Positions 19,084 to 49,335 of a stretch of 64,000 nucleotides of DNA are shown here, piece by piece. The position numbers and the translations under genes are program-made. Each line of letters starts with the position of its first letter. Positions within the stretch are counted from its first letter, which is position 1. Origin of the DNA: Haliclystus octoradiatus (taxonomy: Eukaryota; Cnidaria; Staurozoa; Stauromedusae; Haliclystidae); contig OU744454.1 of the NCBI GenBank assembly GCA_916610825.1, positions 1,141,001-1,205,000 on the forward strand. Reading direction: 5' to 3'. Under the pieces are notes generated by a model. It searched no databases, was not told the DNA's origin, and saw only the letters and a program-made list of their open reading frames with translations.

Positions 19084-19392
19084 ATGTCAACAGTTCGAAA
19101 GTAAAATTATTACCTCGATGCTTAGGTGGTGGAAATATACGCCATAACTGGTTACCAAGCAACGGTTTAAATCACTCAACGGTTGTACGTCTAGGTAACG
19201 CAGCATCGATTCAACACTGTATACAACTATGTTGTAAGAGTGATCGTCAACCGAATGTAGCTTTATATGCTAAAAGACAATGTTACGGTGTTAAATGTAG
19301 TCCGTTACATAAAAAATCATGTGGCTTTATAAGGAAACCGCATTCGAACACGAAAGTTGTCGCTTTGAGGAGATCTTCATTATCAAATAGAG
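19084..19392 (+). CDS. MANEC domain 1 (seven of eight cysteines)
   Basis: One phase 1-1 exon of about 103 residues. Cysteines: RCLGG (C1), QHC (C2), LCC (C3, C4), QCYG (C6), KCSP (C7) and KSCG (C8). The fifth cysteine, normally a few residues after CC, is absent (CCKSDRQPNVALY). The core ASIQHCIQLCC...CYGVKC matches the later repeats, but it is the most divergent copy. It sits at the predicted N-terminus, as in other MANEC proteins. Confidence 0.75.
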
Positions 19393-22300
19393 GTTAGTGA
19401 TTTCCTTGATTCACTGAATAAAAGACCAATCATATGATGTGGTCGTTATATGGAGATAGGTGTTTGGATTTGTCTTGAAACTAGATATTTGTGAATTTTT
19501 CTGTAAAATTTGGTCAAACATATTAGACACGATAAGAACAACGTGTCAAGGATGAGACATTCTAGGTGACCTGACTAGATGACACTATTTTGAGTTGACA
19601 GTGTCACATCATAAGTTGGTCATCGAGCTGTTTACTTCCACTTCCAATACCTACATGCGTTTATGCGGCTGTGTATGTTGTTATGGTTCTCCCTTCCCAT
19701 CTCTTAAGACACGCTTTAGGTATTAATTTTCAAATCCATAGGACCGATGTTATGTATCATTGTTAATTAATCCGTTGATGATCATGCAACAGCCCACGCC
19801 AATGTTATCTAGGGCTTTAAATTCACATCTCATTCTTAGAACCCCCTTTCTTAGGAACAGTAGTGTTAGGGGGTAGCAATTATCTATTTGATATATTTAA
19901 TATTTGGTATCTAATTTATTTTGTTTATTTGAATCGTGACAGCATGGCGAAAATCAACAAGTAACAAAAACAATACATCGAAATGGTCTTCGAATAGTTT
20001 AGCTAGGCACAATGTAAATAATACTATAACATCAACTCAAAATAAAACATTAAATTCAAGCAAATATTCAAAGAGAAATAGAAATTCATTGACTATTAAA
20101 GTAGACCATACGTCCATCACAAATGCATCGAAACATCGAAAATATTTATCTCAAAGGACTATGGGTAATAATACCTCACATTCAAACCACACTAGAATGA
20201 GGTCAAAAATGAAAAGTAAACGTCAATCATTGCTAGATGATCCTAGATTTAAAAATATACCAAGGACTTATATACGACCTATTAATAGAATGAATGGCCG
20301 ATCATCGGTTTATAATCCACAATCTCTTTCAATGGCACCACGTCAACAACCAATGAGTTCTAATGTAAGACAGCCTCTATCAGATGCTTTGCTACCTCGT
20401 TCTCCTATGCAGCAGCGATATGCTCAAGCGATGGGTGTGGCTGTACCTCTTTCGTCATCCGCTCCTTTACCAATTCAGCAGTACCCTCCTGCCTTTATGC
20501 CAATCGAAGGCCAGCAACCTCCCTATCCCGCGATGCCTTACACTGGTATTCCGCAAGAAAGATCAGATATTCCTAGCTTTGTTCTAGAGCCCCGGTCAAG
20601 ATTGTTACAGTCCGATGAAATCAAAGACAGATACTCAGTAGATGATCAAGATTCGTTAACGTCCTATTCAGTTCTACCCCCGTCTAACTTCACAATGCCA
20701 CAACTGCGTGGTGATAATATTGATGTATCAAGAATGTATGACGCTGCCAATGCAGTTAACAATGAACGAGATGAACTTATTCCAGAACAATCACTTGTCA
20801 CCAAAGCAACCATCGTAGGCGACCCCGATGGCGAAGAAGATGATGACATCAATGAACCTGAGCAAAATGTTGTAGACGTCGCTGATTCTGGAAAGACGCT
20901 GATACATCACGTTGGAGATTTCAACAACACAGCGCTACACCATTCAAATAGGAGAGTTACAGTTATGGTTCCAACGCATAAGATGTTTGTTCCAACTCTT
21001 GATATAACAATACCAGATACATCTAAAATAAAGACATCCAAGAATGAGCACCATCTCACAGGTTTGTTTAGTTTGGGAGATGAAAATAAAATTCTTAACA
21101 GAAAAAGTAGATCTATCCATCATCATCATCATAAGAACGTAACGACAAAACATGTGACGCCACGTCATGCTTCTAACCACACAACGACTTACAACGACAA
21201 TGGACAACTACTTGTAGTATTAAATAAACAGCTAAAAACATTCTTTCATCCTACTGCTTCACATATAGCGGGCTTGGCATCTCTGAAATCGCCTGGAAGT
21301 TACGCCAACGTTAAACGACGGACGCAGAGAAAACATAGTGAACGTAAACGTTTCTCAAAAGGATACAATCACAAGGAGAAAGGTAAAACACGCACGCATG
21401 TAATATTCACTGGACATTTACTCAATGCATCATTACTAACATACCAAACGCAAGCTGAACAACAAGTGAATATACTAACACAGACTAACAACACACGTCA
21501 CACACACATACACGCAATATACATGCACAATTAGGTTTTAGCCCTTACGTAAAACTTTGGAGGTTGCACAAGAAAATATATTTACATTCTTGTAAGCATT
21601 TTGGAAGACTTGTTCCCGTAATAAGCTGGTTCCATTTTCATTTGGTCAATAAATATGCGACAATGGAGGTAAGAAAAGTTTCGGAAAAGAAATAATCTTC
21701 ATTTCTGTCTGTCGATGCAAACATCTGATAATTATTTCCAGACCTTTGGTATTTTTCCTTGACCGGAGATGCTACAACATCCCAAATCTGCTGGAGGACA
21801 TGAATAAAACATATTTAGAATCCAGAAAATGTTAAAAAACTTCAATAGCGTAATCTTTTTCATCAACTGATACATCGTCTTTAATCCCGATGGTACCAAT
21901 AAATTACCCTCATTCATACTTGTTAGGCACTCCACTACCTACGAGATATATCCCGACTCAGTCCCGATTGCATTGCATTGTGAAATTCCTATACAGTTCA
22001 TCGAATCATTGACATTCTACACAAGAGCAGGTGATCACGAATAGGCATATATTATTTTCAATGATTCCTGGTTAGAATTAAATAGAACGAGTCAGCCATA
22101 TATCAATTCTGCTTGGAGATAAGTTCCTATTATGACACTTTGATGTTTCAACTTATAGAATATGTTTGAAGATTAAATTCATTGTATAGTTCTAACTACT
22201 TCTTTGTTTGCTCTCTAGGATGCTGGCATCCTCTTGGATTGAGTACAAATCGATTTTCTGATAATCAATTCAGTGCCTCGTCTCAAACTCTACCTTATTC

Positions 22301-25300
22301 TGCATCGCAAGCAAGGATCAATGACAGAAGCAAAGGTTTGTAGATAAATATATGAAATAAAAACTACCCCCAATGTGTGGCTGTATTGTATAAACCTTGT
22401 CCTTCTATTAACTATCAGAACAATATTGTCCAGCGACAGCTACGAACTCAGGTTGAAAAATGCTTAGCGGTTTTCAAAATCTAGGCTCCAACTTTAAAGT
22501 TTCAGACACCGAAATAACATGAACGACAGCCGCAAAGTAGACCGTAGACTAACAGTTATTTGTTCGTATTCTAATGCTTGAACATTTAATGTTTACTAAC
22601 ATAACTTAACAGGGTTATACAAACTAATTGGAGTAAAAAATTATTTTAAAAGGTGAATGTGAGATAGTTCCAGCCTCTTTTCCTTGAAACTGAATTAGAA
22701 ATGAGGTAGTTCTGATGTATTAGATATTTTTTACTCTACTCTGTTCAGAATATCACAATGGGTAATTCTAGACTGTTTTTAATAACGATCTGATAGTATA
22801 CAAGTGTCCTTGTCATTACGTTGATTGCTTTTTCTACTAGATTATACTACTGCACTGCACAGTTTGTAGATTTACATTGCTAAACTCGGTGCAGTTTAAT
22901 CAAATAACAAATAGCATTTCTACTTCTCGATTGGATAATTTTGTTCTTGTTATTCTACAGGGTGGTGTTCTAACAAAAGATCTTCGGACTCTCCTCATTT
23001 GCAAATAGATTTAGGATCAACCATGTCATTCTGTAGAATATCAACAAAAGGTCAGATTCATGGTTTTACAAAAAGGTTTACGCTTGACCTTAGTCACGAT
23101 GGGAACAACTGGAGAGCATACAAAGAACGTGGACGGGAAAAGGTATGACGAGCGATAACAAAATAGAGACTGTAGCGTATAGGTGTGCTCAGTACTCTGT
23201 GACGTATTTACACGTGACGTATTTACAGTACATATTATAAAATGTAGGACGAGGATAAAGCTACGGAGGTTTCCTGAAACGTTTTAAGATTATTGATATT
23301 ACTATCTTGAGCCTGACTTGAAAATAGAACTACTGTAGTTTATTGTGGTGGACCCACAACGCAATGAACTTGAACCGAATCTTTAGCCATTAGCTACACG
23401 TCTGCCATCCACTTTGTACTTATCGTATCGAAAAGGTAATTTAAAAATATTTGATTTCAGTAAATTAATAGTTGAAGATTTATTGTAAAAACAAAATTAA
23501 AAGCTCAAATCTTGAATTGTCTTTACTTTGAATGCGAAGTCCGGAGTGAACACGAAAAACAGGGCCATAATTAATTATATAAACATTGATCATATTAGGG
23601 AGATTTATTACAGTTTATTGAATTATGAAGTGCATCAACTAAAATCCATGTTTGATTTTGTAAATCATGATTATATCTTCTTCAAATCAAATCAACTCTT
23701 GCCAGACCAAGAACCTTTGAATTGGGTCCACCTGTGCAGAGTGACCAAGTTTTTCTGCATTATCATTACCAATCACCAAATTACTTGAATAGAGTATCGA
23801 CATAAAATATAACCACAACAGATATTATTTGAAACAGGAAACAATACTAATGTAAATAAAATAACATAAAAAGTAGATCCTCCCGTGCGGGGAATCGAAC
23901 CCCGGCCACCTGGGTGAAAACCAGAGATCCTAACCACTAGACCACACGGGATTGTATGAGAGTTGACAACAGTGTGATCATATCAATAGCATCTGCTATC
24001 TATCGCCTATAATCTATTATCGCCATTATCTATCGTTATCTACTAGAACTAAGAGTTACATAACTTCTGTCACTGTTTTATATAATTTACATCCTATTAT
24101 TACCTCAGTTTTTTCACCTGTACTAATCTCGTTTTTTCCCAATAAGGAATTTACTGGAAATAATGGCGATGCCGACACGACCTCTATTGTACTGAAGCAT
24201 CCCGTCGTTACTAGATTTGTTCGTCTTCGTCCTACATCGTGGAAAGGAGTAACGCCGTGTCTCAAAGTGGAATTATATAATGATACATCAACCGGTTAGT
24301 ACTGAGATCATGTGATGTATTGATGGTCTCTTCAATTCATTGTGGGGCGGGTTTTCTAGATTGTAGCGTTCATGTATTATATCCTAGTCCTGGTTTGCAC
24401 ACGTACTTCCTATCAATCTGTAAATCACTCTCTTCATCTTCAACCATCACCGAGTAAGGTTGGTCTTGTCATAGAGGCTCTGTCATTATTGTTATACACG
24501 TATCAAAGTCATCCTATCCCTGACAGTTGCCAACTTCCACCAACATTAACTCTTATAAATAAATATATTATATTATCAATATCAGTTATGTAGTAACTCA
24601 TTGTATGTCACAGTACTGTATAGACTGTCATATTATAAGAATGTGCCGTCCCTCTTTCGCTACACAATTAAGAACGCCACAAATCACAGCCGACAAAGAA
24701 ACATCTATACCAATATAGCATAAATAATCCGACCCTGGTTTTAGAATTCAATCCGATCTGTAATCAAATGTAGGTGATTGATTCAATTTTTAATCAAATA
24801 ATTAACTCGGTCGATATTAACAAAAATTCGATTTTATCCGATCCAGAATTTATCCAGAATAAGGCCGATTCAAATCGATCCGACAGTTAAATCGCATTCT
24901 GAATTCTAATCATCAGATCGGATTCGCACACATTTACACCTTTTCAAGTCAATTTCAGAAATTTCAAATTCAGAAATGTCTGAGTCAATTTCAGAAAGTT
25001 CCAATTCAATATTAGAAATTTCCAAATCACTTGAATATTTCTGTACGATCTGATTTGTTTAACGATGATGTTCTGTTGATAGATATCATTGATTCTAAAT
25101 CCAGTCGATCAGCCATACCAGAAGTCCACCATGGTCTAATCGAAGATCTTGGTTTTGAAAAAATGGACGAAGATATTGTCTTAGACCAATCACCGATGAG
25201 TAGTAATGCGTTCTTAGATCACGGTGCCGGTTTATATGACACCCACAGCTCATGCCGACATGCTGCTGTATTACAAAACGGTGGTGATATGTTACTTGAT

Positions 25301-28300
25301 AGTAAAAACATGCGCGTGAAACCCAAAGAGGCTATCACTATCTCGCTTTGGGTGAGCCTTGATGACGTCATGGGAACACATTCTATCTTTGATACGATTG
25401 GTGGGCATTCAATGCATCAACAAGGACAATTTCACTTCGAGGTTGTAAATGGTATGGTTCGATGGTTTCATAGAAATGAGACTGGAAATACTATTTTCAA
25501 TGTAACCACAGGTCAGTAAAGAAGACATCAGACTATCTAATAAGATCCAATGAGTCATTAACCTTATTGAATCAGATTCTCCCTCTGCCTCTCGGATGCT
25601 ATCAACTGATACTGTGTGATGTTAGTATGTTATAAGCATTAAGCATGATATATTCGATGCTGTCGAAGTAGGCTACGACAGAGTACAGTGAAACCTGTAT
25701 ATAGCAGCCACCTAGAAGATCTGCAGAAAATGACCGTTGTGACAGGTTACCATTGTATACAGTGCTAATTCAATACGATAATGATTTTGTATAATACTTG
25801 AGTGATCAATATAGACAAGTTACTCAGAAATAGCAGGTCTGACTGTATATGCTAAAACTTTCTTTAATCCAGTTTTGAATCGGACAGCATCAGAAATCGC
25901 GGTGATTTTCCATCCAAAGAAAGTTACGTGATTCAGCAAACTATAGTACTTATAAATTGTACCTCTAGTGTCATTAAGAAATACCGGAGATGCACGCAGC
26001 CTGAAGGAAATAAGGAAATTAGACTCCGCATTTTTGTTCTATCCCCAAGCAAAAAATGCCAAACTTTCTTTTCCTATTACTGTCATAGTCTTAAAAAAAA
26101 TAAATAAAAAAAGTCTTATTTAAACTGACTGATTAATGACCCCCAAGTCACAATGATTTTGTTTCTTCCTCCGTTGCAGATCGAGGAGCTATAATTGCTA
26201 AGAACTGGCATAATCTTGTTGCCACTTATGATGCTGCATTTCAATTGGCTAAAATATACGTCAACGGTTCATTGCGTGGTCTTGGAAATGGCCACGGATT
26301 AATCTCGCAAGATTGGGACCAAAAAGTTGGTGTCGGTCGACATAAAGATGGTCGTTATCTCAATGGTTATGTTGACGAATTTAAAATTTACGATGAAGCA
26401 TTATCAGAAGATAGAGTTGTAGATTTGGCTGCAAGATGTGACTTTAAAACATATTGTAAGCTACGACACTAGTATATAATTTAGTACTGTTTGATATAGG
26501 AAATTTGAAAAGAAATGATTATATTTTAAGGTCAAGAAAGGTACTCGATACGATGGTTTTATTCGGGTTTGGATACAATTTAATATCAAATTTGCTGCTA
26601 TCAGGGATGGGCAACCTCTATCCTTCCTCCCTTTAAATCGCTAAATGCTTTCATTTTGTATCAATATTGGACATGATGTATAGATAAATCCGTATTAAGC
26701 TCCGCTGACACCAGTGGCATTAAGTAAGGAATCTAGATATTTAGATGGTGACCCTAATTATATAGCGTTTCCGTTAAAGTCTGATTCTACAGCAACACAT
26801 TTGCCTGTGCTACTCCCGCAATGCCATCGGATATCTGCTTGATGTCTTGGAAAGTCTGCCTCTCCGATCTGTACAATCTTGGATGAATTATAATTGAATA
26901 TATGTTATTATTTCCTATTTATTTCGCAGACTGCGGTGCAACTCTCAATGCCGAAAAGGGCTTATTGGTCACTCCTAATTACCCGTCAACGCATCAAGGA
27001 CCAATGTTATGTGTTTGGGAAATTGAAGGCAAACCTGGTGAAATCATCACATTAGATGTAAAAGAATTCGATCTCGGCGGAGATGGAGATTGTTCCCAGT
27101 CTACTCTTGAAGTAAGAGACACTGAACACGAGGCACTGATTGGTAGTTATTGTGGAGCAGAGAAACCGAGAATCATCGAATCACATGGTCATCGAATGTG
27201 GATCAAATATTCATCACCAGGCAACAAGCAGAGCGAGAAATTCAAACTTTTATATAAACGAGGTTTGTCGTTTTTATCATTATCAGTAGGACGTAATATC
27301 TATAATTGATTATTATTATAGATATTTATTTATTTACAGCTCTGGACATTATTTATTGACATTGCGCAATTTTTTTTTGTTTTTTGTTATTCCATATTCT
27401 CTTGTTTCCTTTCTACATATTTCTCAAAAACTAAATTGAGCAGTTATATCAACAATGCTGTACTTCAGTAATACTTATAATTATTTAGAGGCTGTGTTTA
27501 TATTTTCGATTGTAATTTTCTTTCTTCCACAGAGAACAAATTAAGTTCGAAGAAAACTCTTGAGAATGAACAATGTCATTTGAGTCGTACTTTGGTAAAT
27601 GTTACCTTATACGGAGGTGCGAAGGCAGGAAATTTTACAGACATTGGGAAAGTCCAAGATATCAATGAATGCGCTGATAAGTAAGGAACAATAATAGCCA
27701 TACAGGACAACTGAACAATATCAAAACGAGTAGCTTCTGTATGATTTTGAGGCTGACTTCAAAATTTCATCAATATATTATATATATATATATATTTTAA
27801 TGTTTGAAAGGTAAATGTAAATGTAATACAGACTATTGGACAGAGAGCATTTTACAGAGAACAAGTTTCAGCATTTTACTATAATCTCCTAAATAAATAT
27901 TTTTTTTAAGTCTAACATATTAAATTATTTAATTACCTGTTTTATAAGTTTACACATTTCGAGTAATTTACATTTGGTTGATTATCTTGTGATTATGAGG
28001 TTGATCTTCACATGAGCTGTAAGATCTGTCTTTATAATTTCTAATGTGATTTCTGTTACAGATGCTGTGCACGTGATGACTGTGATATGGGCTTTATGAT
28101 TGAAGGGTATTGTTATAGTGTGGCATGTTACAATGATGAGCTTTGTAAAACAAGAAAAGCGAAATCATCTGGTCTATTCCCCACTGTTGCCTTGGTGACA
28201 AGAAACGGAAAATGTACGTATTTGTTTTGCTCATTTGTATCCAATACTCATAACTTACAATCTATTGCAATCATATTGGTATTGATATGAAAAGCTATCA

Positions 28301-31300
28301 GTTGGTAAGAAGTGTGATTGTGTCTTTGGAATCGAACATGTTAAATACTCCCACTTCTGGTCCAGATGAAAAGTGGGGGCAATAAAAAGCGGAGTTGGGC
28401 ATTTAGTGACGTAGAATATAACAGCCTGTAATGTTCATTAGAAATTAGCTATATGTGGGAACGTTAACCAAGGTGGGAGCATGGGACATTTAGAGAGGCA
28501 GAGCATTCGTCTCGACTTGATTTAACAAATCAAATTAGTACCATCTTCTGATGGCGAATGAAAATGTCCAATAGGAATGTATTATGAAGAGCTGCGACGT
28601 ATTGCTGCGCCTTGAAAATTGAGGCATATATCTGTCATGAAATCTGATGAAATTTATCTGCAGTGTCGTGACTGAAATCATTAATAAACAATCATTCCTT
28701 TACAAGAAGAGCGGCTCCTAAAATCAAAAGACTGGTACAGATGTATTTGATAAAGGCGACACCGTCGTCTGTATAACTCAGATTTAACTATAGGAACCGT
28801 ACTCATCATCATCATCATCATTTATTGAGATAAACCTTTCAGCCTAGACAGGCTTTTTTCAAAGGGCTCATTATAAAAAAATGCTGTATAATGTTTTTTA
28901 AAAATACCAAAATTAAATAATAATGAATTTACAATAACATAATTTTGCACATTTTGCTATACTTGCTATACTGAAACTTCGAAATATATAAGTCGAAATA
29001 TATTCTTCCAAGAAAGAAGTGGATGAATGATGCATGAATGCCTTTGTGTATAAACCAGCTCTATAATATTTTCTACATGCTGCATATAATTATGTGTCAT
29101 TCCATTTGTGTTATTCAGTGCCTATCACCACATCACACAACGATGAAACATCAATTACGTCATCAGATCTAAACAACCAATCAAAATGTGATCATTCGAA
29201 GACTTTTCATAATGTTACTTTGGTTGGTGGGATTAAAGCAGGCAATTTTACATCGAAAGGACCAATTCTAGATTTTAACAAATGTTTATCTGAGTGTTGT
29301 AATGATAAACAATGTGATGCTGCGTTCATGGTCAAAGGAACATGTTTTTCATTGAAGTGCTCGGATCCATCTCTTTGCGCTATGAAATCTGCTAAGCCAT
29401 CATCTTACAACCCAACAATCGCATATGTTCACAGAAATAATAATAATGGTTTACTCACACAAGAAGAAGGTGCGTAGAATCATCAAATAGATACTGTTTA
29501 AATGTATCATATTGTATAGCTCGCTAATAGACTGTATTGTCACACATGAAAACAATGGAAATTATAAATAGAATACTGTCCCTGGGGGGTACTTCCATAT
29601 AGGCGCTATACGCGGATGTTCCATTATTAAGGGTACCATACTGGCATGATGCTTGCAATTTTGGGATTAAATTTGCAATATTGACTACCTGCTGCAAAAT
29701 TTCCAATTTCCAGCAGTGAATCTGGCATATTTCAGATATTATTTATATGCATATTTCATGCTTTGAGGTGCCCAATTGGCATGTAAACTATTCAAAAGTT
29801 CAATCAAGTTTTGTTATATTTTCAGCAATACGTGCAATTTTTTTTGGATGCTAGCAAGATTCTCAAAATGGCATATGTCTACTCATCCCTCTCAGGATAC
29901 TGACGTCAATGGATCTTGAAAATACTACAGTACAATATCAAACTGGATTTAAGAACTCTAACTTCGTGACACCCAGAGGGATTTATTTCGTTGTTTTCAT
30001 TTCCCAATTACCAGCATGTAAAATACTTTGTACACATCCTCTTTCTATACCAACTCCTCATTTCCACGCATACAGAATTTCACATTAAGAAATATAGTTT
30101 GAATCTATTTGAGCTCTATTTATCTATATCAAAATGCAACGCACAACTTACGTGGTCGATCTAAACTATCTAATATTGGTTAATTTAGTTTGATTGATTC
30201 AACCTAGCCTGCTCTCAGGCTCACTGTCAAATTGTAAACTTGGTTTACCAAATTTACATTTTGACAGTGCGAGTCTGCGGGCAGGCTAGATTCAACCAAC
30301 TTGTAGCAAATAAATGATTACAAAATGAAAATGGATGCTTCGTTTTATTAAATATTTGTTGTTGTGAGACGTTATGTACTTGTGTTCTCCTTAGATCCAC
30401 CTGCCAGCTCAAAATCAATGGTTAATCCGAATTCACCGCCTAAATCATGTTCTAATCTACGTCCAAGTAAAACCTTCAATGACGTCACCTTGAAAGGAGG
30501 AATAAATGCGGGTGAATTTGTTGACAAGGGCAAAGTGTTCGATACAGCCAAATGCCTTGACTACTGTTGCCGTGATGATGGTTGTAATCTTGCTTTTGTG
30601 ATTCGTAAAACATGTTTTCTTGTGAAATGCAAAAGTTACGAGTCATGCGGATTAAAGCCTGCTGTGTCTCGTTTCTATACACCCACCGTAACATATGTAA
30701 ATTGGAATCCACCGAAAGAAAATGTTGGCGATGGTAAATACGAAACATTATCACTGACGTTGTTTAATATACATCTATAAGACCAAGCAACCTTATGGTC
30801 AAATACAGTAATATGGCAACCCGCATGTCATTATGATCTTATAAATCAAATATTAAACACTTTCTGTGAAGTATGGGTTATATAAACACAAGTGTTGCGT
30901 CATATATGCGTCATGAGGCACAAGGAAGGCCTAAGAAAATCAAGAGTCACCGCGGCAAACTTATGTTGCGAGCTTGAATGATGTAAATCATAATCCATCT
31001 TATCTATATATTATCTTTTCTCTTTTTAGAGTCAAACCGTTATGACTATCAAGGCTGTTGGCGTGATTTCGATATGTCTGCATTTGCGATGCCGTTACTT
31101 GAAGGAACTGACCCATTAATCAGTGGACCATACAAAAACAGAGAAGATCCAGTCAACGACTGCGCAACTGTAACCCAAAAGCTGGGATACAAAGGTATAA
31201 TTATCAACGTACTAGCTAAGAGTGTATAGGGTCAGTGTCGATAATAGTTTCAGATACGTACGTTGATTTTGAATGCTCTGCGCAGATGTGAATTCGCATT

Positions 31301-34300
31301 TAACAGAAATGAATTCAAACACCAGAATCTTGCATGACCCAATTTATGTATTTTTTGATGAATTATGCATGATGCAGATTCAATGCAGCCGACAATAGAT
31401 GGAGGACATGTTTTATATATACTGTTGAACTGAATGATTTTTTCCATTGAGGAGTCTAGCTACTACTCTATAGTGATTGGCACCTCACAAAATGTATTTA
31501 TTTTATGTATTTCAGTTTTTGCTATTCAAAATGGTGGAGCTTGTTTTAGTGGATCTGATGCAGCAACCTCGTATAAGCGTTATGGTGGTTCAACTTCATG
31601 CAAAGGAGGCCGTGGTGGAGCTTTTGCAAACAGTGTATATAAATTATTCGATGATGGTAATTTTGGAATAATCTCAATTGTTTGTATTGTATTGTTGAGG
31701 TAGATGTGACCTCACTTATCTATAATTCTACGCCGTCCTCGTTGTGTCGCAATCGTTACTCAATGATTTAGTAAACCTTCATATCCCGCTTCAGATATAT
31801 TAACAGTCTGAATGTCAAGTTTGGTACGAAACTATGCCCGAACTATGTAATTGCGTATAGTGATCAGCTGATGAAAACTTTCTATTCTATACTAAACTGT
31901 TCTATACGTTACAGTCATGTGGAAGATTTCCTCAGAGAAACTAAACTCCTTATTTCCCATTGGTTAGAAACAAAAATCCAGCTAAATTGACTTCACGTAA
32001 TGTCCGTTTTTACGTTCTGGAAGAATCATTTTACGGAATATTTCGTCTAGGAAATTTCCATCTCCAGGTAATATGTCCACGGTGGGAAAATCGTTCATAT
32101 AGGTCTATGACGGGGTCTATGAAAAGTACGCCAATTCTACATTTAAAATATTGATTTGGTTTGTATTTACAATTTCTAAAGCTTTTCCTCGTTATTGACT
32201 GAAATGAAATGAAACGTTGATTTTCATGCTGTTTGTAGGTTCTGTTATTAGCCTTGGCTGTTGGTCCGACCTTCAAGACAGAGCCTTCACTCGAATTGAA
32301 AAGACAGACCCTCTACTTCAAGATGACTTCCAAAAGAGGCAAGATCCCGTAGGACTATGTGCTAAAGTTGCGAGAAAACAAAATATGAAATATTTTGCAT
32401 TACAAAAAGGTGGTCAATGTTTTACCATAAAAAATCAACAAGAAGATTATAGAAAGTATGGCATGTCTAGAAAATGTAAATACGGTCTAGGTGGACAGAT
32501 GGCCAATGACGTATATTCATTGAAAGGTAGGTTGGATCAATGATGGACCTATGTAGACCAAGGCCCTGTTTATGAAATGCTTAGGCACGTCTCTCGAATC
32601 TCATTATTTAATCTTCTTTCGTTGTTTGAACGGGCCGAGTTGTACCTCTTCCTTTGCCCTCTTTAACGTATTTTATTCATGAACTGTTATTTATCGCATA
32701 GATATCACAATCACGCCAACACAAGCCAATTTAAATCAAAGTAAGCCATCGCTAAATACAACCACGCCTACCAATCACGTGACGTCAGCAATTAAACAAG
32801 ATGTTGCCACAACAACAAGTAAACCCACTGTAACAACGACTACAGCAACAACAAGAAAATCACCTGTTATAACGACCAGTGCCCCACCAATAAGTTGGAC
32901 GAAGGCAAAAGGCCCATTACCAACGCGGTTAAACGACACTTATACTAATAAAACAATTTACAAGAAAGAAGAGACGGATACAGAAATTAAAACATATACA
33001 TTTAGCATTGGTCAAATACAAGATAATGTTACTATGGCACGTGGTATTAATTCAGGCACATATGACGATAAGGGCACCGTTGATAGTTTGGATCAATGTG
33101 TTCACGCATGCGGAGTAGAACCATCTTGTAATTTGGCTTTTATGCTTGGTCCGCAATGCTTTTCAGTTGGATGTTACTCTGACGAATCGTGTTATACTAA
33201 ACCTGCCTTTTCATCGTTTTATAACCCACGGATTGTTTTTATCAAGCATGATGTTTCAACCAGACAACGTACACAAGGTAAATATTGTTGGGCATAACCT
33301 CTGTTGTTATTAAATCATTGTTTACTCATAATTATTATATGCATATTATTATATTATACAGTAGTGCTAAATACATGGTATGAGATCTGACCACGCACGT
33401 GAGGTATCCAGTCTGTCTGTCTTATTGATTACTAAGCAAGTTGTTTTGGCGTTTTAAATTTATGCTGCGCTTTATATCTAATACTTGAACATATAAACAT
33501 GAATATTATATTATTGGTAGGTTTATCCCTCGCAAGTTTTTGATATAAGTCTGGATAAAAATCTCATAGCATAATTTATAGAATGAGAGGCAAGAATATA
33601 GACATGATATATACTGTATAGTCCGAAAGGTACCCTCTAATATTTAAACTTCGCCGTATATCAAAAGTTTGAAAGTCCCATCTTTGATTTTTATATTGTT
33701 TAATCTATATATATATAATATGGTGTAAGTTGTCTTAGTGATTAAACATAGGGCTCAATGCTATACAGCAGAGCGTTAAATAATATATAAAGTATAAAGT
33801 CAGAAAATAGACAATAATGTTTATGGTACTCAAGGTTTCACGCCAAGGTGATCATCAGGCAGTCTTTTCAATCTATTGGTTGGTTACGATTGTCTGATTT
33901 CTGACTAAAATACATGTGTAAATGTTTCCTTTACGTCTATGTATCATTGTATAGGTTCAACTAAAACACTGAGCGATAAAGGATGTCCCCATATTCACAA
34001 GACAGAAAATTTAACATTAGTTGCTGGCATTCACGCTGGTAACTTCTCTGATCTTGGAATTGTCTCAAGTATAGATGAATGTGTTGAACGATGTTGTAAT
34101 GTTAGTTCATGTGAGATTGCGTTCAAAATAGAAAGAGATTGTTATGGTATTACATGTAATAATAAAGAATCGTGCAAGACAAGACCAGCAAGAAATTCAG
34201 CCATCTTTACACCTGTCATTGCCTATGTCAGGCCTATTACTAATAAACGAGGTAAGAGATTTAAGGGGTTATTAATAAATACTATATACTAAATCAATCA

Positions 34301-37300
34301 ATGATAGCAAAAATTGATTATCGCAATTGTTGCTGTGTCCTGTTCATACACTGGGACATTTTAATTCTTGCAAGAATGTGCTGCTTCTTCCAAGTTTGTT
34401 TCCACTTGTTTGGAGCAAAAATGTCATATATATTGTACAGGTCTGGCTTTCAAGCGCCTTTGTCTTGCAAGTCCAAATCGCTTGAAATTGGACATCAACA
34501 ATAATTTGCGTTAATTTGTCTACTCCTGTAGTTAGTATACCCACCATGTACCGCGTGTTGGTTGGACTCTTTATTTCGATTAGTTTATCAATACGATCAA
34601 TGATGAAATATTGGTTAGTTTCAAAACTTTTTTATATGATATATATGATCAATGACTTACATACTGACAAAGTAAAAAGTGTGCAGATAATATCCGCATG
34701 ACATGCACAAATGGTGAGGGATACTGGGATCATGACATGACACAAATGGGGAGGGATACTGGGATCATTTTGATTCCAGAAGGCTAGAGCAAATTCAAAA
34801 TAAAGTTGGTATTTTTGTGATCCATTGGCCATCAACAAAGAATCCGGACGAAAAATTCTAGGTTTCCAGAAGGTCTTTTTGTAAATAGATATGTCTCTGT
34901 ACTCTACAAATGTTTCGTTGTGAAACAAATGGTTGTATCTATTCATTGTGATCGTCCTTTTTTTCTGATATTAATATATTTGTGTATCAATTTACTTATC
35001 TTTTAGTTTACGCCACATCGTCTGACGTAATTGTTTCTCCTCAAGTATCTCCAACTCTCAAACAAACAACTGAACAATCCCCATCAGTTGTTGCTTCCAA
35101 TTGTAGCAAGGACCAATGGGAAGGTGAGATCCGTGAAAACGAAACACTGATTGGTGGAATTAAAGCTGGTGATTTTAAAGATCATGGAGAACGTTCATCT
35201 ATTGGCGAATGTATGAATGAATGTTGTTCTGAAGCTACTTGCGACCTGGCATTTATGATTGATAAAGATTGTTATTCTGTCCGCTGCTATAACCCTGACA
35301 TGTGCAACACGAGAGCAGCGAAACCAACAAAATTCTATCCTGTCATTGCGTATAAGAAAAAAACGATTACAGGTAACATTTAAAATACAATACGGCAGAC
35401 AAAACATCCTCTCTATAGACAGACTGCTTTGCTGATATCATTGTTGACTAAAAGGAGGATAGTTACTGATACACCGGAACACCTTACAAACCAACTGAAT
35501 CCCCTACCCCCTATTTCTTATACAAGGACCAATCAATAATGATTGCATGTCATAGATATTGATGCCCCACGGCAATGCATCTCTGAGCTAATAATAAGTA
35601 ATCTTTGTCACTGAGCAAATAATATACATGGAACTGAATTGATCTCTTCATTGGCTTTTTTATTAGATGAGTGGATACAAACGGGCAATTGACACCACTC
35701 TATTGATATAATCCGATTGATGATATTTCAATCCAATGATTCAAACTAGATTAATTATATTAATCTATCATAATAATCTTAATTTAACAACCGATTAATT
35801 GAGTCAATCTAATTATTTGCATTGTTATACTGTTTAAATTGATCAAACCACAACAGCTGTGACTGATGACGCTTAGACTTGACTGCTACAAATCATGTTG
35901 AAATGGCTTCGTTTAAAGACCAAGACCTGATTCAAAGATGCCCTATTATTGTAAATACGTTGAAGTTGAAGCTGGTCTTACAACACACGTCTAAACAAAT
36001 GCAATGGACTAGAACATTACAACGCAAAAAGATTCCGTTAGAGACATAACTACGACACACACACACACTCACAAACCTAGAAGATTGAAATGAATGACTG
36101 TACAATACATACTTTATTCATCTGAAACGACGCCAGCTAGCGATAATCAGATCGACAGTGAATGTCACCGATCGTCACTGCCAATCCAGAAGATACATCC
36201 AGTTGACCGCACAACGGCTATCACTGACCACCGACTGCTACAATGACGACACCAGCTGTGGCTTGATTTAAGCTCCTCTTCCCACTGAATATGCATGTTT
36301 ATGTAATACTAATGATCATTGCTAACCTTTTGTTTACTGATCTAAACCAGCACATCGACGCCTGACTAAATTCTACTTAACGAGTTTACAGCATCAACCG
36401 AATTACGTACACGAGCATGCCGAACAGTCTGTTTCAAGGAGTAAAGGTACAGCTATATAGGAACTAACACACTGCAGCCCTGTTATGTAATATAAATAAT
36501 GTCTCTCTCTCTAAGCCCACTACTCACCCATATTGCCAACCATTGCTCGTTCATACCAAATCCATTGAGTTTAATTCAATATACTAATCATTAACAATCT
36601 TCAGGTTATAATGACATTTACAAATTCATCCATGATGTCTATAATGAACTTGACGAAAACTTGAATCCATTATCTACCATGCGACAACGACTACCACAGA
36701 GAGTTATTACTCTTCCAACATCAACGACATTACGACCGACCATTACCTACGGTGCCACAACGCAAACAGTCATTCCTCATCCGCAAGGTAATGTCTAGCC
36801 ACCGACGCTATAACTACCATCTATCATTGACACAAAAGAATACCAGGACAACAGCATGCATCTAGACCTCAAACGATCATTGTACAATCCACCCACCAAC
36901 GCAACAATTCTCATTACACTTACCATCTATCATTGACAATAAACACCTTACGACGCCCTACCCAGAGCTCAAACGATCATTCACTCGCTGTCCACCAGCG
37001 CAACATGCAATACCATCTAGAATCGCCAATAAACACTGTATATGGAGTCTCAATAACATCTAGTGCTGAAACTACCGCTTGCGTATGTAAACCCCACCCA
37101 TCGATGCAACAATAACCACAAACACGTAGCTTGTAGTACTCATACATATAACAATACAGTATTACACTTCCACATGTTTTTAACATTCGTAAAAACATCC
37201 CACAGGAGATAAATATGCATGTTGCTAACATCCCACAGGAGACAAATATGCATGTTGCTAACATCCCACAGGAGATAAATATGCATGTTGCTAACATCCC

Positions 37301-40300
37301 ACAGGAGACAAATATGCATGTTGCTAGCATTATAATTTACCCCCCCCCCCCCCCTAATTAAATAAATGCCTGAATCCCACTAACACGAACACGAAGAAAC
37401 GCTTTTCTCTCGCCTTATACACAAAACATAACAATACACAACAACAAGTCTTCTGATGTGGAAATCAAACGCTGATGCTATTATACACTCAATCACTACG
37501 CATTCATTCAACTAAGCATTCACATGGAGAAATCTGAAATCTACACATTTTCTACCTTGCAATATCGGTCGCATGTTGAAGTGGTCACAATAACAGGGTG
37601 TTCTCCAGTATACACAATTCAATATACAGAATCTCTTCAAACACAGTTATCATACAAAAGAAACCTAATAAACTCAGAAGTGACCCCTAATGTTGCCAAA
37701 TATAGCTGTAACTAAGCAACATCCTCTATCCCATGTTCTGCCTCTTAGAATTAAAAAAATAGTCCCTTGCGGTATACCTTTGAGAATATCTATTATTAAT
37801 GACTGGCGTAGGATATAACTATGTTCAAAATCTCCGTTTACTATTAATCTGATAATACAGTATATGTCAGATGGTCATACCACAACGGAACACACTAATT
37901 AGATATTGTTAGAAAAAGGGCTGGGAGAAGAATACGTGCGCTATATTCTATTATTTCTCTGATTGATATAGATTGATCGCCTATGATGATTTTATCTTTT
38001 CAAGGCCATTGAGTGTAAGCTACATGTCTTTGGACACATCCGAAACATGTATTCAGCTCAATGAAAAGGTTTCGGCACACCCTCCTCAATCGTATCCTAT
38101 CCGAAGGAGTAACACTTTCTCTATTTGCAAGACTGACTCGTTTTCATGTTTGACTGTTAGGTATATTAGCTAATCCGATGGCTGCTGGTTCGTTGTTAAG
38201 CACAGAAGTCCAAGCACCGACTGTTGCCCTGGCAACACAAGATGGGGATCACAAATCTGTTGCGGGTTAGTTGTCAATCATTGTCATCAACAGATGTATA
38301 TTTCTTATGATCGCGAATTCTACATTTGCAACAACTCATGTGCCCTATAGGAGCTGGATACAATTGAATAATGAATCACTTCGTGTTACCCGTGTATATG
38401 GCCACTGGATACGCCTAATTCTGAATTTTGACTTATATGGAGAACTATTTCAGGCATGAGAGAGCTCCTTCAGCAAGCGAATTTCCTCCTCTTTTAACAG
38501 CATGTTTCCAAAGGTTTTTCATTCTTTGATAAACTTTATTCTCGTGTGTGGATTTAGTTGAATTCAATTTGTTTCGTCGAACATTTTATCTATATATCTA
38601 TAATTTCAGGTGATACAAAACACTCGTGTGGTGCGACAAACCCAATTCATAATTCAACTCTGAAGATGGGAATGCACTCTGGTGTCTTCACTCGCCTAGG
38701 TCACGTGCGCAGTATGGATGAATGCATTGAGCGATGTTGTAAATCATCCAACATCGACGTTGCTTATATGCTTGGCTTAATGTGTTTCTCTGTTAAATGC
38801 TACAGTCCTGAATTGTGTAAAACATCTGAAGTGATGACGTCAAGTATTGCTAATCTTAATATGAACCCAACCATTTCTTTCTTGAATGGGAATGAAAACA
38901 AAAAGCCTGGGGCGAGTGATAATGGACCAATGGGTGAGTAGTTTCAACATTTCTAGAAGAATCGGACCGGTTTTACAGAAAGCGATTACCGTAATGTACT
39001 CTCATCAATGGAAAGCCCATTGCGCCAGCGTTAACTTGCTTTATTCTTACGTTCGTACTGTTTACGAAAATGCAATGCATAGCATAGATTGACGAAGACA
39101 GTTTACCTCTTTTGCAGATATCTTCTTCTCTCCATTTGATGCACAACTCGTAAAATAGAGCCTCTTCGAGAATATGTGTTACCTATTTGTCTAAACCTTG
39201 ATCTATCTATCTATCTATCTATCTATATACATCACACTACTGTCTAAGTGTCTATCCACTATTTACTATATTACTATCTATATACTATATTGACATCATT
39301 CTGTCTTACATTGATTTTCTTAAACTTCAAGACGATGACGATGCCAATCCGTTGATCGATTCAACCGACAAGCAAACGATTGACACTACTCGTGTTATCA
39401 ATCCACAACGGAAACAAACGAAAAAGACCGATCATACACCGACTAAAACCGATTACACTGCTGCTGAACCGACTGCATACCGAACTACTTCAGGTATAAA
39501 CGCAAATATACATGCATGCTTCTTCGTATCTATATATAGCAACTATTGTTGTCATGGTCCTTACCTAAATGCATGCAAACGGCTTATTTGATATAAAGAT
39601 ATATTTCTTCAAGTTTCTTTTTAGCCTCCTCGCAGACTCACTGTCAGAATGTAAACTTGATAAAACAATAGATTCGTGTCAATGTCTACTTTTTCATCTA
39701 TAACTCGTTTTGACAGTGAGTCTGTGGCGAGCAGGCTTGCTTCTTTTATAATTCACATATATATTATAGATATATATATATATATCACAAATCCTGTAAC
39801 AAATCGTACACTTTGGTAATTCGTGACACTATATACGTAATTCCTAAATGAACTGATATGTTTATAATCAATACACATGAGGTATTGATTAAATGACATC
39901 TGTGGTCTGACATAATTCACATCTTATATGCTGGCCACCTTCTTTATGTGGAGCTAGCTCAAATGTTAGAACAGAGACTTCTAGCAACATGGCTTGAAGT
40001 CTGAACAGTGAGTATATATATTCTAATATATAATCATTATCATTGATGGTATATGGCGTAATCGTATATGTGATCAAATTGCTTGAACGACCAGAAATGA
40101 ATATTTTACAATTTTATCACGAATGATCCATGTATTTCAATGCGTGTGATTGATTACCTGTCTATAACGACCTTACTAATGAACGACCGCTTAACTATTG
40201 CCATTTACCTTCTTTGACTCAGCTGGACTCTGTCATTTTTTATGGACTCGTTAGACTGGCAAAAGTTTGTTCTCGTTTGTAACTCTGTTAATTAATTGCT

Positions 40301-43300
40301 AAGAAATAAAATCTTCAAGAGTTAGATACATAGAAACAAGCAGCTCTATAATAACTATTAAAATCAAATATTTCTAACAAATATCAAACTATTTATTTTC
40401 TAAATAACGTTCATTATATAATCATATACATCTCTTTTAACTCTTCAAATTTACAATAAAAACTTAAATTACTGAATTAAAATGGTATATAGTTATCTAA
40501 AATATATTACTAGCCTATAAATCCTTCTTACATTACAATAAATTATTTAAACCGTCGTAACAGCGATTAAAATTGTTTCATTGTTTTAATTTGGCTGTTG
40601 TTGTTGTTGCTAGCTTCTGTGAATCCGTCTGATGGTGGTTATACTACGTACGACACATGTCAAGATAGTCCAGTAACATACAATGTAACATTACGAGGTG
40701 GTATTAATGCAGGTCAGTATCACAATCGGATTGTGTCATCATAATCGGATCGTTAATCAAAGCATCAAATCTGAAGTTTTACACAATTATAATACAGTAG
40801 AAACTGTTATAACGTCACCTTTTATAACGGATTATTGTTTATAGCGTACACATTTATTGTTTCCGGCATATTTTAGTAGGTTTCGTCTGATTAATTATCT
40901 GTTATAACGTCACTGTTTATAACGGATTATCTCCTAAAACGTCACCTATTTCTATTCCCGTGAACTAATAAAATCGTTTATAACGTCTCATTTACAAAAA
41001 TCTTTGGTTTTCATTATCAAATACAAACAATATAGTCATTTTTCAACAATAAGAAAGTATTTCGGACGATTGAACGTACAATATGTCACACTTTTCTGTG
41101 GACACGGCACATCGCCTATAACGTACTTTTTTCAGATTCCCCAGGGGTGCCGTTATAAACGGTTTTTACTGTAGTCATCATTTCTATCATAGTCGTAAAA
41201 TAAAAGATCGTTGATACAGAGGAATGACAGCAAAGTGAAGATATCCAGAGATTGTTTGCCTGCTACACCTTTACACCTTTTTCAAGTGAATTTCAGAAAT
41301 ATCCAAATTAATTTTAGATAGATACTTACTTTACAGGCAGCTGCCAATTTCTTGTGAATCTGTTAATCACAAAGTTAATGATAGCTATGATCGAAAGCGG
41401 ATAGAGGTACCATATTGAAATCAGTCGAGGTCCGAGGCCAGAGGATGGTGGGGATTGAAGGAGATTCGCGAGGCATTATTAAGTAATAGAATTTTTAACA
41501 TTGTAGCTCATAAGTAAACTTCGTGTATTAGAAATCGGTAGTTACCTGTAAAGTAATTATCTGTTTGAAATCATTTGAAATTTTTTGAAATCAAATTGGA
41601 AATTTCTGAAGTTCAACTGGAAAGGTGTAGCAGACTCTCTGTAAATTGGAAGTTAGTTTCCCAAATTGGCCAACTCAGATGACATAGTACACGACGGCTG
41701 TACTTTTTCATTTCATTTATTTTGTCAATTGACAATCAAAACAAAGGAGAGTCACATCACATTAGCTAACTTGCTAATATTCAGTATATATCTACAGGTA
41801 GTTTTCTATAATAAGTATATTAAATTATTTGTTATTAATTGTTATTTTTATAAATATGCACATCAGACCTCGTGGGCGTGGTCCCGTTGTGGTTCAGATC
41901 CTCCGGAGGTCAACTCCGAGGGTCAACTGAACCTTGTCATTATCTTGAACATCAAATCAATTCCATCTTTTTCTGATGGCAAATAGAATAGTCCAGAGGG
42001 AATTGAATTACATAAAAGGCTGCTACAGACCGCTGCTTCTTGACGATAATTGTCTGCCAATAAACTTATTGAAATTGACGCTCAGTGCCGCAGCTAAAAG
42101 CACCAGTCATTACGTTCATTGTTCTAAAAACATTGGGAGAAATACAGTCACTCCTCCAGATTTACAGTAGAAGAGTGTACGTCAATGCGTAAGAAGAATT
42201 TCTATCCGTGACCAGCATTCCATAAGCCTCGTTTTGGTTTTTAGAGTGAACATTTTTGATATTATGTTAACCTTCTTCTTAGACTGACGTTAGGAATTCC
42301 TTTTTTGAATGATCCTATATTTATCTGACTAGTTAATAATGGATTTGTCTTATTCTACAACAGGAAATTTCACAGAACAAGGTGAAGGATTAACCATGAG
42401 TGAATGCATTGGCAAATGCTGTGACGCTACAGTTTGTGATCTCGCTTTCATGTTTTCTGATAAATGCTATTCAGTGACATGCTTCCGTGAAGATCTTTGT
42501 CAGGCTGTCGTTGCAAAACCATCGTCGCTTGAACCAAAGATTGCCTATTTATCAAAGAACACAAAATTAAATTATATTGAAGATGGTATGTTCCTATATA
42601 CAATTACTTACGTAAAGAGTTGATTAGATTCAAATAAAGCCGAATATTAATATTCGATGTTTGGTTTTATTTGTTGGTTGGAAATGGTATTTTGCACACC
42701 GATATAATTGCATTGAACTTGATTCCAGTGGTAGGACTAAATTGTGATACAAAATTATTATCCTTATGTAGAATCAAATTATAAGAATACTTCAAAATCT
42801 CTCTTGAATTTGATATATTTATTCCATAATGCCATGAAAAAGACCAATGCCTGCATAACACCGTATCGTACATAACTGTCTATGACAGACAGGCAGGCTG
42901 CAGTAATAAAAAGTCAATTAATTAAGGAAATGTTCGAAACGGAGGTCTTTCATTATCAATAGGACTAATTCAATCGGATCTCTAGTTACTTAAATATAAT
43001 GCTACTAAATTTAGTATCTTCCTAGTTTACTATCTCAGACCTATTACAATACACCAACCGTATATTTGATGGTGCTAGTCTGACAAGGCACTCATCAGAG
43101 ACATCAGATAATATGCACAAATGTTCTGCACAAGTTGAGCAGTTATACAAACAGAGCAATATTTTATGATCTGTGTTTTGCGCTTTGTTTTAGCTGGTAC
43201 GTCATTCGAATTGAGTTCTGGTAATCAAGCACAATGCGATGCAACACATTTACGTCACGGTCCAATTCATACTAATAAAACTCTAGCAGGTGGAATGCAA

Positions 43301-46300
43301 GCCGGAAATTTCTCATTTCTAGGTCGTGTGAGGTACGTCATTTGACTACGCCTTTGATAACATCTTCGTTTTGAAACTATTGTAACAATTGTTGAAATAT
43401 CAGATATCACTGAAGACTATTGTACTGAAGATAATTCATGTTCAACTTTTTGTTGTTGTTGTTGTTGTTGTTGTTGGAGTTAGCCGGTCTGTATGATATC
43501 ATTGCAACTGGATAAAGTATTCCAGATGAAAAATGAAGCATTCGATGGTGACCATTCCAGTGCAGTGCATAATATAAAAACAACTTTAATAATTGACAAA
43601 CTATCAGTCAGTATATTGTTTTAAAAGAGAAAAATTTACAAAAATAGCAAATAGCTACCTGTTTAAAGATATTTTGTTAGAAGTTTGGCATGGTTTGGAA
43701 CTGTTTTGTTTAAATTTACGCGTTCTTGTTTTGCCATTAACAGATTTTAGTTACGTCACAGACAGTGATTGTAAAAATGACTTTGAAGTGTTTATGGACA
43801 AGGCTGCTAGAAAAGATAAAATGCCAGCATTTTGTTTGAGTAAGCATAACTCTTCAACTACATGATGAAATTTGACGAGATTCTAAATGGAATGATCAAT
43901 CCAGCCCAACCCACCTTTGTCGGTCGGACCCTACGCACAATCTTCCTGAGAGTTTGAATAGTGCGTTTCGTAAATAAAACGAGGTAAAATTTATGGCTTG
44001 TCATCCTTTGTAAGCAGCAACGCATGTTCAAAAAATACCAATCTTAGCTTTCTACCCTCTCTAACATTCATAATTTTTTAATTCATTTGACTGACTAATA
44101 CTTTTTATCTGTAGTGGTATTGGAGATTGCCTTCATAAATGCTGTGATAAAAAGAGTTGCGATGTGGCGTACGTCATCGATGGAATGTGTTTTGCTATTG
44201 ATTGTTTCTCGAAGAATCTTTGTGAAGTTACAACGAATTCTGAAGTAAAGAGTCACGTGGTCATTTCTGCTTTAGTCAAAGAGCAACGACCTCCAAGCAG
44301 GAAAGGTAATTCTCTATTTTGGATTCGTTGGACTGGGTGGGGTCCGGTAGTGCCAGCAGCCTTTTTCGTCTACTTTGATCTTGTACAAAGAAACTTATAT
44401 AGTGTCACAAAATATTGCTTGAATATAAGCTATCATCAAGATAAGATAATAATAATGATAATAATAACTACACCCTTTCCAAGTGAATTTCGGACAGATA
44501 ATTACGTTACAGGCAATTGCCGATTTCATGTGTTTCTGTCAATCATGAAGTTAATGATAAATATGATCGAATGCGAATAAAGGGACCAAATTATAGCGGA
44601 GTTAAAGGACCGAATAATAATGTAAATATTGTATAACAGAGTGTTTGAAGCTGAATATAGTCGTTGTATATATTTATATTGAAAATCCTTGTCAAGGTAA
44701 CATTTGATAGTAGATCTGTTTTGGACTACCATCGTTGTATAGGGAACGTCCTACTTGCGCGCACAATCATATATTGAAATGGTTGGCGATAGCTTGGATT
44801 CTGTTTAATTGTCATCAAGTAACTATTATTATAGCATTTATAATTCGTCTTCGTGATCTATACCAAACATTCACTTAGAAAATCTAACCTCTGGGAGATT
44901 GGGACTGATATGCAAGCTGTCAATCAGGCTGTCAATCAACCAAGTGAACTTTGAATTTAAACTTTCATGGAAGTATTCTCTAGCAAACAAGCATTGATTG
45001 CTTTTGCGATTAGCCTTAATGCCGTGTATACCATTTATCTCATGTATTCTAATTATAGCTTTAAAATAACTCAATTCTTATAGTATTTATAGTATTAAGT
45101 CTTTACATGATTAAATGGAGATATATCTATAGGTTCCTCTATCATCCTGTTTTTAGTTGATCCATTTATATCAAAGTAATGTTTTTCTATATTGGTTAGT
45201 GCAAGAACTTATACAAAAATAGTGTTACAAAGGCTGCTGCACATATAGAATTAGTTTTAAACTTTTAATACTAATTACCTGTATTTGCCTTTCTTTATTA
45301 TGTAATAATTATAGTAATATTGACAAATAAATCGAATCGAAATCAGATTAGAATTATGTGACATTAAGAAAGTATTGAGCAACTTTGAAAAGTATGTTCA
45401 ACGGAAGACCGACTTTCGATAGCTTTTCATTCGACTGAAATTAGATGAGATTTTCATTTAACCGACTTTTCATTTGTATGTGATTTTGTTTAGATCCGAA
45501 TGTTGGAATTTACATTTTAATTGGTGTTATTGTTGTTGCTGCTGGCTCTGGTGGTATTTTATGGGCGTTGTACATGTATTTAAAACGGTTTGTAAATCAC
45601 TCAGTGGATAGATATCCGACGGACAAGTTAATCGGATTGACATCTATTTATATAATTTTCTACGGATCTGGGTAGAGCTTAAGTCTTCTTATTCCTACAT
45701 TGCCACACAAATTCAAAGCGAAACAACGTCATCTGACAATCTGATAATTTTCGTATTCCCTTTTTTGAACTAAACCGAGAAGGAAAGATATAATACTACC
45801 ACATGATGAAATGCAAATCAAATCCAGCTTCTCTATAACATCAAAAAATTTCATTTCATTTTGTGCCAAGGTATCTGTGCGTATAGTATTCTAAGATGGG
45901 ACAAACCAAATTACTAATAAAAATACGCTTTTGCTACCTGGAATTTTCTCAGAAAGGGGGCAGATGCTTCACCACCTATCGAGGATACTTTGCAGTTTGC
46001 TCCGTCTGCTTATTAAATTTGCAACATCGCTGTCATTTGTTACAAAATTATTATTATTATTATTATTTAAATCATAATATCAAAATAAATCGAATAAAAA
46101 TTGCCTCCTGTTTGAATTATTCCCCTTACCGGGGCTATCGACAGCACTGTTTCTCGATTATTCAATCTTGTGAGTCCTTCATGTGCATTGGTACCGTATA
46201 CAGTGTTAACCACTGACCTAGAATATAAACTATATCAAAACCGGCACCGGCGCTAGACAGAAACAATAATATTAGCAGAGCAAGCTCAATGTAATTTATA

Positions 46301-49161: not shown

Positions 49162-49335
49162 TTTTAATCACCTCTTAGAGTTGAGAGAGTTGTATGTTCT
49201 GTGCGTGTAACTTTTAATGTTGAAGATCGGATTCATAGAAATGGCATCATTTTTATGTATCCGATCTTTTAAACATTAAAAATTACATGCACATAACAAA
49301 CAACTCTCGTCAACTCTAAGAGGTGATTAAAATTT
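49162..49335. mobile_element. Long inverted-repeat MITE
   Basis: Left arm TAATCACCTCTTAGAGTTGA... and right arm ...CAACTCTAAGAGGTGATTA are complementary over roughly 70 bases with few mismatches, around a short centre. The terminal motif AAGAGGTGATTAAAATTTTG also occurs alone at 48291-48312. Confidence 0.75.

Follow-up and report, generated by a model that had tools for sequence, protein, structure and literature searches.

A 64,000 nucleotide stretch of the genome of the stalked jellyfish Haliclystus octoradiatus (C11:1141001-1205000, contig C11 being chromosome 9; referred to below as the window) appears, on balance, to hold one gene encoding a mosaic protein that crosses the membrane once, with type I topology, and which would serve as a multivalent extracellular binding or adhesion receptor and would belong to an expanded family apparently related to KIAA0319. 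Ten MANEC modules are arranged in one continuous reading frame with discoidin, LamG, CUB and WSC-like modules, and other arrays of the same module are found elsewhere in this genome of 261.86 Mb in 33 contigs (C1, C2 and C11 are contig labels, C2 being chromosome 2).

Gene structure

The model comprises 28 exons on the forward strand, between positions 17469 and 46826 of the window (Table 1), and encodes 2,547 amino acids with a sole stop codon at the 3' end. The exon borders were chosen by frame, splice sites and phase; the exons share a strand and together span 29.4 kb, and the frame is free of stops until 46826. From its N terminus, the protein is composed of a candidate signal peptide, module 1, a cysteine-free linker of 480 codons that matches no Pfam family, the discoidin (F5/8C), LamG and CUB domains and modules 2-4. 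These are followed by two WSC-like modules, a Thr-rich linker, modules 5-7, a linker, module 8, a further linker, modules 9-10, a transmembrane helix and a tail. The joined model has 96 cysteines and 39 sequons.

Phase 1 is found in 23 of the 27 introns; the remainder interrupt the discoidin domain or modules 2 and 10, or follow the transmembrane exon. Every inter-domain intron 5' of the exon encoding the membrane helix is of phase 1 in the model. Phase-1 inter-domain introns are a signature of exon shuffling, and with such uniformity the frame would survive the skipping or duplication of an entire module.

A preliminary description of this DNA, made from the sequence alone, placed the gene at 19084-46826. 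Its 3' end is retained here, but the start must lie upstream, as the exon at 19084 starts in phase 1 and is not preceded by an ATG in frame. Between 15072 and 19083, only 17469-17574 combines an ATG with a hydrophobic stretch and a phase-1 donor, and this is the candidate first exon. The same description anticipated a single-pass protein, and by hydropathy the model has just one stretch that is strongly transmembrane in character, near its 3' end. Type I topology combines a signal peptide with one such helix; here the helix is clear and the candidate signal exon weak. When the long introns were scanned for more coding exons, a single linker-like candidate was found (38161-38265), which stands outside the model; the codon table behind it was trained on the same exons, and hence it offers no independent proof.

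The modules

Pfam searches with the joined protein bear out the ten MANEC modules originally described: KIAA0319_N (PF23597) matches ten stretches (2.2e-82) and MANEC (PF07502) seven (1e-20). The discoidin, LamG and CUB assignments likewise all exceed their cut-offs, with F5/8C at 75.0 bits (7.7e-21; cut-off 28.2), Laminin_G_3 at 74.7 bits (1.2e-20; cut-off 27.6) and CUB at 75.6 bits (4.8e-21; cut-off 21.4). The label WSC-like stands less securely: there are two WSC stretches (6.2e-4), but at 20.4 bits they fall below the cut-off of 27.8, and each module has four cysteines, short of the eight, forming four disulfides, by which the domain is defined in the available text of PMC9024836. A single-sequence fold model of WSC-like module 2 was poor, with a predicted local distance difference test (pLDDT) score of 51, and neither WSC-like module had a sequence match in the PDB at E up to 10.

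Two further tests support the array. A cysteine-spacing pattern had 11 matches in the six frames of the window, namely the ten modules and one at 53485 that contains a stop codon; in 40 base-shuffled windows the mean was 0.075 and the maximum 1. A profile built from 46 modules elsewhere in the genome (a set of 56 minus the window's ten) matched all ten at 39-90 bits, and WSC-like module 2 gave an extra row at -1.0 bits. In the reversed protein this profile gave ten rows at E up to 1, of which four fell below 0.01 and the best reached 8.2 bits (E 1.1e-4), which can be ascribed to the cysteine pattern, and 20 block shuffles gave no rows below 0.01. Chance cysteine runs as the origin of the modules are ruled out by the base-shuffled windows and the block shuffles. 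No eleventh module was found in the window by a profile of the ten copies.

The ten copies are less uniform than first described: modules 2, 9 and 10 are split by introns, and modules 1, 5 and 8 fall short of eight cysteines, which are kept in the other seven. The fifth is missing from modules 1 and 8, leaving seven, whilst module 5 retains six and lacks both the first and the fourth, which suggests that these two pair with each other. All eight are present in 51 of the 56 modules of the genome set, which includes the window's ten and excludes short or split rows. Pairwise identity among the window copies is 20-47%, and the array is therefore probably old. An N-glycosylation sequon lies near the start of eight of the ten window modules, as against 21 of the 56 in the whole set, again counting the window's ten. 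An AlphaFold2 model of module 3 (pLDDT 88.8) predicts a PAN/apple fold, with the HAI-1 MANEC domain among its structure matches; both the model and the matches concern module 3 only.

MANEC arrays elsewhere in the genome

The preliminary description proposed a search for orthologues with more than three MANEC domains, and within the Haliclystus genome other loci with that many are present, at the level of genomic arrays. KIAA0319_N matches at least 58 places, at least 57 of them over the cut-off; eight belong to the window gene. With the ten-copy profile, 52 rows were obtained at the other loci examined, or 49 modules after allowing for two split pairs and one canonical MANEC; with the window's ten and two at C1:31.38 Mb, the count for the genome comes to about 60 (61). 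The latter two exceed the KIAA0319_N cut-off and were counted from that match alone, a third place there being below the cut-off and uncounted. Also excluded was C11:3020494, where PF07502 matches at 27.2 bits, just over its cut-off, and which the ten-copy profile did not find at E 0.01. The ordinary form of the domain occurs too: on the minus strand at C1:23718629, a signal-like start precedes one canonical MANEC (6.9e-19).

The array of 20 modules lies in a stretch, C2:15544800-15588900, that apparently holds a single giant gene. Two of its exons are of 10.7 and 13.6 kb; the stretch has open frames of 3,571 and 4,593 codons and giant low-complexity linkers, and in the assembled stretch LamG and MANEC share one open frame, at 35183-36238. 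A frame with Ig and EGF domains is found further downstream. The arrays of 15 and at least five modules, within C2:16416001-16475000, are divergent, lying head to head 3.5 kb apart. The window LamG is 47% identical over 158 amino acids to a LamG of the 20-module stretch; however, among the 14 matches in a genome search with the first exon of the window LamG, C2:33562815 scored 94.8 bits as against 93.6 for that of the giant, so this domain alone is no proof of a special tie between the two. Window and other modules are intermixed in a tree of 56 modules, which has long branches and no support test, and hence no order of duplication was drawn from it. To judge from these loci, the window gene would be one member of an expanded MANEC-array family rather than unique.

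Relationship to KIAA0319

The K319L-like PKD domain was matched at six places in the genome; five of these exceed the cut-off, and one of the five contains an internal stop. All are on the minus strand of C2 at 16417849-16429834, downstream of the at least five minus-strand MANEC modules. The profile also matches five of the 14 prokaryote genomes used as controls, in two of them over the cut-off, and so is not specific to KIAA0319 by itself; in all four frames tested from that stretch of C2, K319L-like PKD was nonetheless the best Pfam family and the sole one over its cut-off, ahead of the general PKD models. Between the PKD domains and the last minus-strand MANEC module are about 19 kb with one sub-threshold match. 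The two sets of domains are likely to form one gene; if so, the Haliclystus KIAA0319-like gene itself apparently carries a MANEC array, and the family of arrays is apparently related to KIAA0319.

Comparison with known proteins

The window protein resembles KIAA0319 and KIAA0319L (AAVR) in its KIAA0319_N/MANEC modules and single transmembrane helix, but has ten such modules instead of one, adds discoidin, LamG, CUB and WSC-like domains and ends in a tail of about 22 residues. It was rejected as a member of the KIAA0319 family itself, in which MANEC is followed by five PKD domains, since none of the nine Pfam families found at E up to 1 is PKD. With HAI-1 (SPINT1) it shares the MANEC fold: in the PDB, 2msx matches best by sequence, and 5h7v is among the matches by fold; HAI-1 was likewise rejected, with neither Kunitz nor PKD nor LDLa among those families. 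LRP11 has LDLa and PKD-type domains with one MANEC, and was rejected because both are absent at the same threshold and there are ten KIAA0319_N stretches. Tandem PAN/apple modules are also found in factor XI, plasma kallikrein and Toxoplasma MIC4, and such structures head or feature in the fold matches of module 3, but these proteins are of another sequence family and are not known as transmembrane mosaics of this kind. Kremen1 is described as a type I receptor in which CUB is paired with a WSC domain (PMC5014086, available text). The window protein also has CUB and WSC-like modules, although two of the latter rather than one WSC, along with ten MANECs; the Kringle-WSC-CUB order of Kremen was rejected, no Kringle being found by Pfam at E up to 1.

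The available part of PMC6134521 describes NSP5, a cnidarian-restricted nematocyst protein and probably a membrane protein, with one MANEC in its middle. It is like the window protein in being cnidarian, MANEC-bearing and probably membrane-bound, and differs in that this single MANEC is its only conserved domain in the table given there. The same source reports many cnidarian MANEC genes, and non-cnidarian BLAST sequences that are much longer and have additional domains, so multi-domain MANEC proteins would not be new as such. MANEC is also included in a table of the extracellular domains of adhesion G protein-coupled receptors (PMC12716839, available text), another setting for the module. The architecture was initially thought to be without described precedent. 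No array of ten or more MANECs was found described in the open-licence papers searched, but several MANECs also occur together at further loci of this genome, of which one is larger and another is followed on its strand by PKD domains of KIAA0319L type. In architecture the window gene is a variant on known multi-domain MANEC proteins, and its family is of more interest than the gene itself.

Function and alternative explanations

PAN domains mediate both protein and carbohydrate contacts, according to the available text of PMC9024836. PAN-type modules here adjoin two lectin-like folds and CUB, with Ser/Thr-rich spacing, which is the ground for reading the protein as a multivalent receptor or adhesin. 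If, as predicted, a single transcript encodes the whole protein and the putative signal peptide brings it to the surface, the ectodomain would present ten MANECs, a subclass of the PAN/apple fold. Among them would stand two WSC-like modules, of a class with the same fold elsewhere, beside discoidin, LamG, CUB and Ser/Thr-rich spacers. A large number of modules, each binding protein or glycan weakly and carried on flexible stalks, would give avidity rather than one tight site, and could retain soluble ligands, matrix or adjacent cells at the surface of the cell. The tail of about 22 residues, in which no enzyme, known docking or signalling motif was noticed by eye, may do little beyond anchoring or sorting the protein. 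The adhesion or ligand-capture role suggested at the outset thus seems the most likely one, as judged from domain content.

Some observations weigh against this. The first exon is weak, with a poor codon score (-10.4), and the scan that found it also matches three places in 19393-45400: ATGs with hydrophobic stretches and phase-1 donors at 24372, 43166 and 43438, from which short products could start, that at 43166 running in frame into the module-10 exon. In addition, NSP5 keeps a cnidocyte role open (PMC6134521, available text). The alternative starts speak for the possibility that the model has fused neighbouring genes or short products, for instance a discoidin-LamG-CUB gene with a MANEC-array gene, or a product of module 10 and the transmembrane helix, and uniform phase-1 modules will join in frame even if they come from separate genes. 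We regard such a fusion as distinctly unlikely, given the stop-free run of same-strand exons, the single strong transmembrane stretch at its 3' end and the mixing of LamG and MANEC within one open frame in the 20-module stretch.

It is also unlikely, if somewhat easier to envisage, that the protein is a structural component of nematocysts or mesoglea, its arrays building or cross-linking an extracellular polymer. Both the cnidarian-restricted NSP5, with its one MANEC, and the relative of about 10,438 codons, whose giant low-complexity linkers resemble matrix, point in this direction; however, a transmembrane helix and short tail close the window protein, and NSP5, in which MANEC is described as the lone conserved domain, is perhaps itself a membrane protein (PMC6134521, available text). 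A recognition receptor for immunity, self/non-self discrimination or symbionts, diversifying through duplication of its modules, would be consistent with several arrays in one genome, lectin-like partners and copies of 20-47% identity, yet the cysteines are strongly kept and the tail shows no signalling motif by eye, making this explanation very unlikely. The surface receptor or adhesin remains our favoured interpretation.

Other features of the window and genome

Upstream of the gene, window positions 13977-15068 encode a rhodopsin-type receptor of the G protein-coupled class in one open frame on the forward strand (7tm_1, 8.9e-52), and a minus-strand tRNA-Glu (TTC) lies at 23880-23951, within an intron of the discoidin part. 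Positions 49161-49333 are self-complementary, 86% identical to their own reverse complement, and perhaps represent a small mobile element. A 42-base tandem repeat of 19.6 copies spans 58238-59060, with an open frame encoding PEGTPEPEAEHSPM, and 59093-61175 and 61356-63441 form a 2.1-kb direct duplication that is 98.5% identical. In the mitochondrial sequence, COX1 has in-frame TGA, and AGR codons at positions that are arginine in other animals, both as in cnidarians; in the 6.6 kb examined, no tRNAs besides trnW and trnM were found. MutS was matched at 10 places in the genome, none of them on the mitochondrial contig, which speaks against an octocoral.

Table 1. Exons and domains of the window gene (window positions) and MANEC arrays at other loci (contig positions)
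Feature	Position	Strand	Evidence
Exon 1 (candidate), putative signal peptide	17469..17574	+	35 codons, ends phase 1; weak
Exon 2, MANEC-like module 1	19084..19392	+	KIAA0319_N 8.7e-07; 7/8 cysteines
Exon 3, 480-codon linker: basic, Ser/Thr- and Asn-rich, cysteine-free	19943..21382	+	Open frame, phase 1-1
Exons 4-6 (22219-22335, 22961-23142, 24147-24294), F5/8 type C (discoidin)	22219..24294	+	F5_F8_type_C 7.7e-21, joined protein
Exons 7-8 (25083-25511, 26180-26455), LamG/ConA-like	25083..26455	+	Laminin_G_3 1.2e-20
Exon 9, CUB	26930..27262	+	CUB 4.8e-21
Exons 10-11 (27533-27680, 28062-28213), MANEC-like module 2, phase-2 intron inside	27533..28213	+	KIAA0319_N 2.6e-06 (second exon); eight cysteines
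Exon 12, MANEC-like module 3 (29187-29447)	29119..29469	+	KIAA0319_N 1.9e-10; AlphaFold2 pLDDT 88.8, predicted PAN/apple fold
Exon 13, MANEC-like module 4	30395..30733	+	KIAA0319_N 1.4e-08, MANEC 3.3e-06
Exons 14-15 (31030-31194, 31516-31656), WSC-like module 1	31030..31656	+	Within sub-threshold WSC match; four cysteines
Exon 16, WSC-like module 2	32239..32526	+	WSC 2.1e-4, 21.9 bits (cut-off 27.8); four cysteines
Exon 17, Thr-rich linker and MANEC-like module 5 (32995-33258)	32702..33277	+	KIAA0319_N 1.2e-07; six cysteines
Exon 18, MANEC-like module 6	33955..34251	+	KIAA0319_N 5.8e-07
Exon 19, MANEC-like module 7	35007..35372	+	KIAA0319_N 6.6e-10
Exon 20, linker	36605..36787	+	Open, phase 1-1
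Exon 21, MANEC-like module 8	38610..38933	+	KIAA0319_N 1.6e-10; lacks fifth cysteine
Exon 22, Ser/Thr- and charge-rich linker	39332..39493	+	Open, phase 1-1
Exons 23-24 (40614-40712, 42364-42585), MANEC-like module 9, phase-1 intron inside	40614..42585	+	KIAA0319_N 2.6e-09 (second exon)
Exons 25-26 (43194-43332, 44115-44305), MANEC-like module 10, phase-2 intron inside	43194..44305	+	KIAA0319_N 1.2e-09 (second exon)
Exon 27, transmembrane helix	45494..45587	+	19-residue hydropathy 2.32, maximum of the protein
Exon 28, short cytoplasmic tail (basic, then acidic/Ser-rich), stop codon	46760..46826	+	Frame and phase match transmembrane exon
20-module locus	C2:15546214-15583443		Twelve phase-1 exons, about 10,438 codons stop-free, two LamG
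15-module locus	C2:16452252-16474058	+	Ten-copy profile
Locus of at least five modules	C2:16439100-16448787	-	Ten-copy profile; 3.6 kb gap between loci unread
3-module locus	C1:25626033-25627334		One 498-aa frame

Conclusions

More tentatively, the MANEC arrays may constitute an adhesion or recognition family that has expanded in stalked jellyfish, and perhaps in cnidarians at large, having grown from a KIAA0319-like gene. Its proteins, some exceeding 10,000 residues and carrying 20 modules on long flexible strings, might act as a multivalent glycan or matrix velcro for attachment or in the mesoglea, and the single MANEC of vertebrate KIAA0319/AAVR could then be the remnant, or the seed, of an array; we consider this possible rather than probable. 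KIAA0319 is a dyslexia candidate and KIAA0319L the receptor for adeno-associated virus, but the ancestral role of the pair is unclear and, to our knowledge, their MANEC domain has no settled ligand. A genome with ten to twenty copies of this module at a locus, and apparently with a relative of KIAA0319 type among its arrays, would be a natural test of what the module binds, and of how PAN-type arrays grow through the duplication of phase-1 exons.
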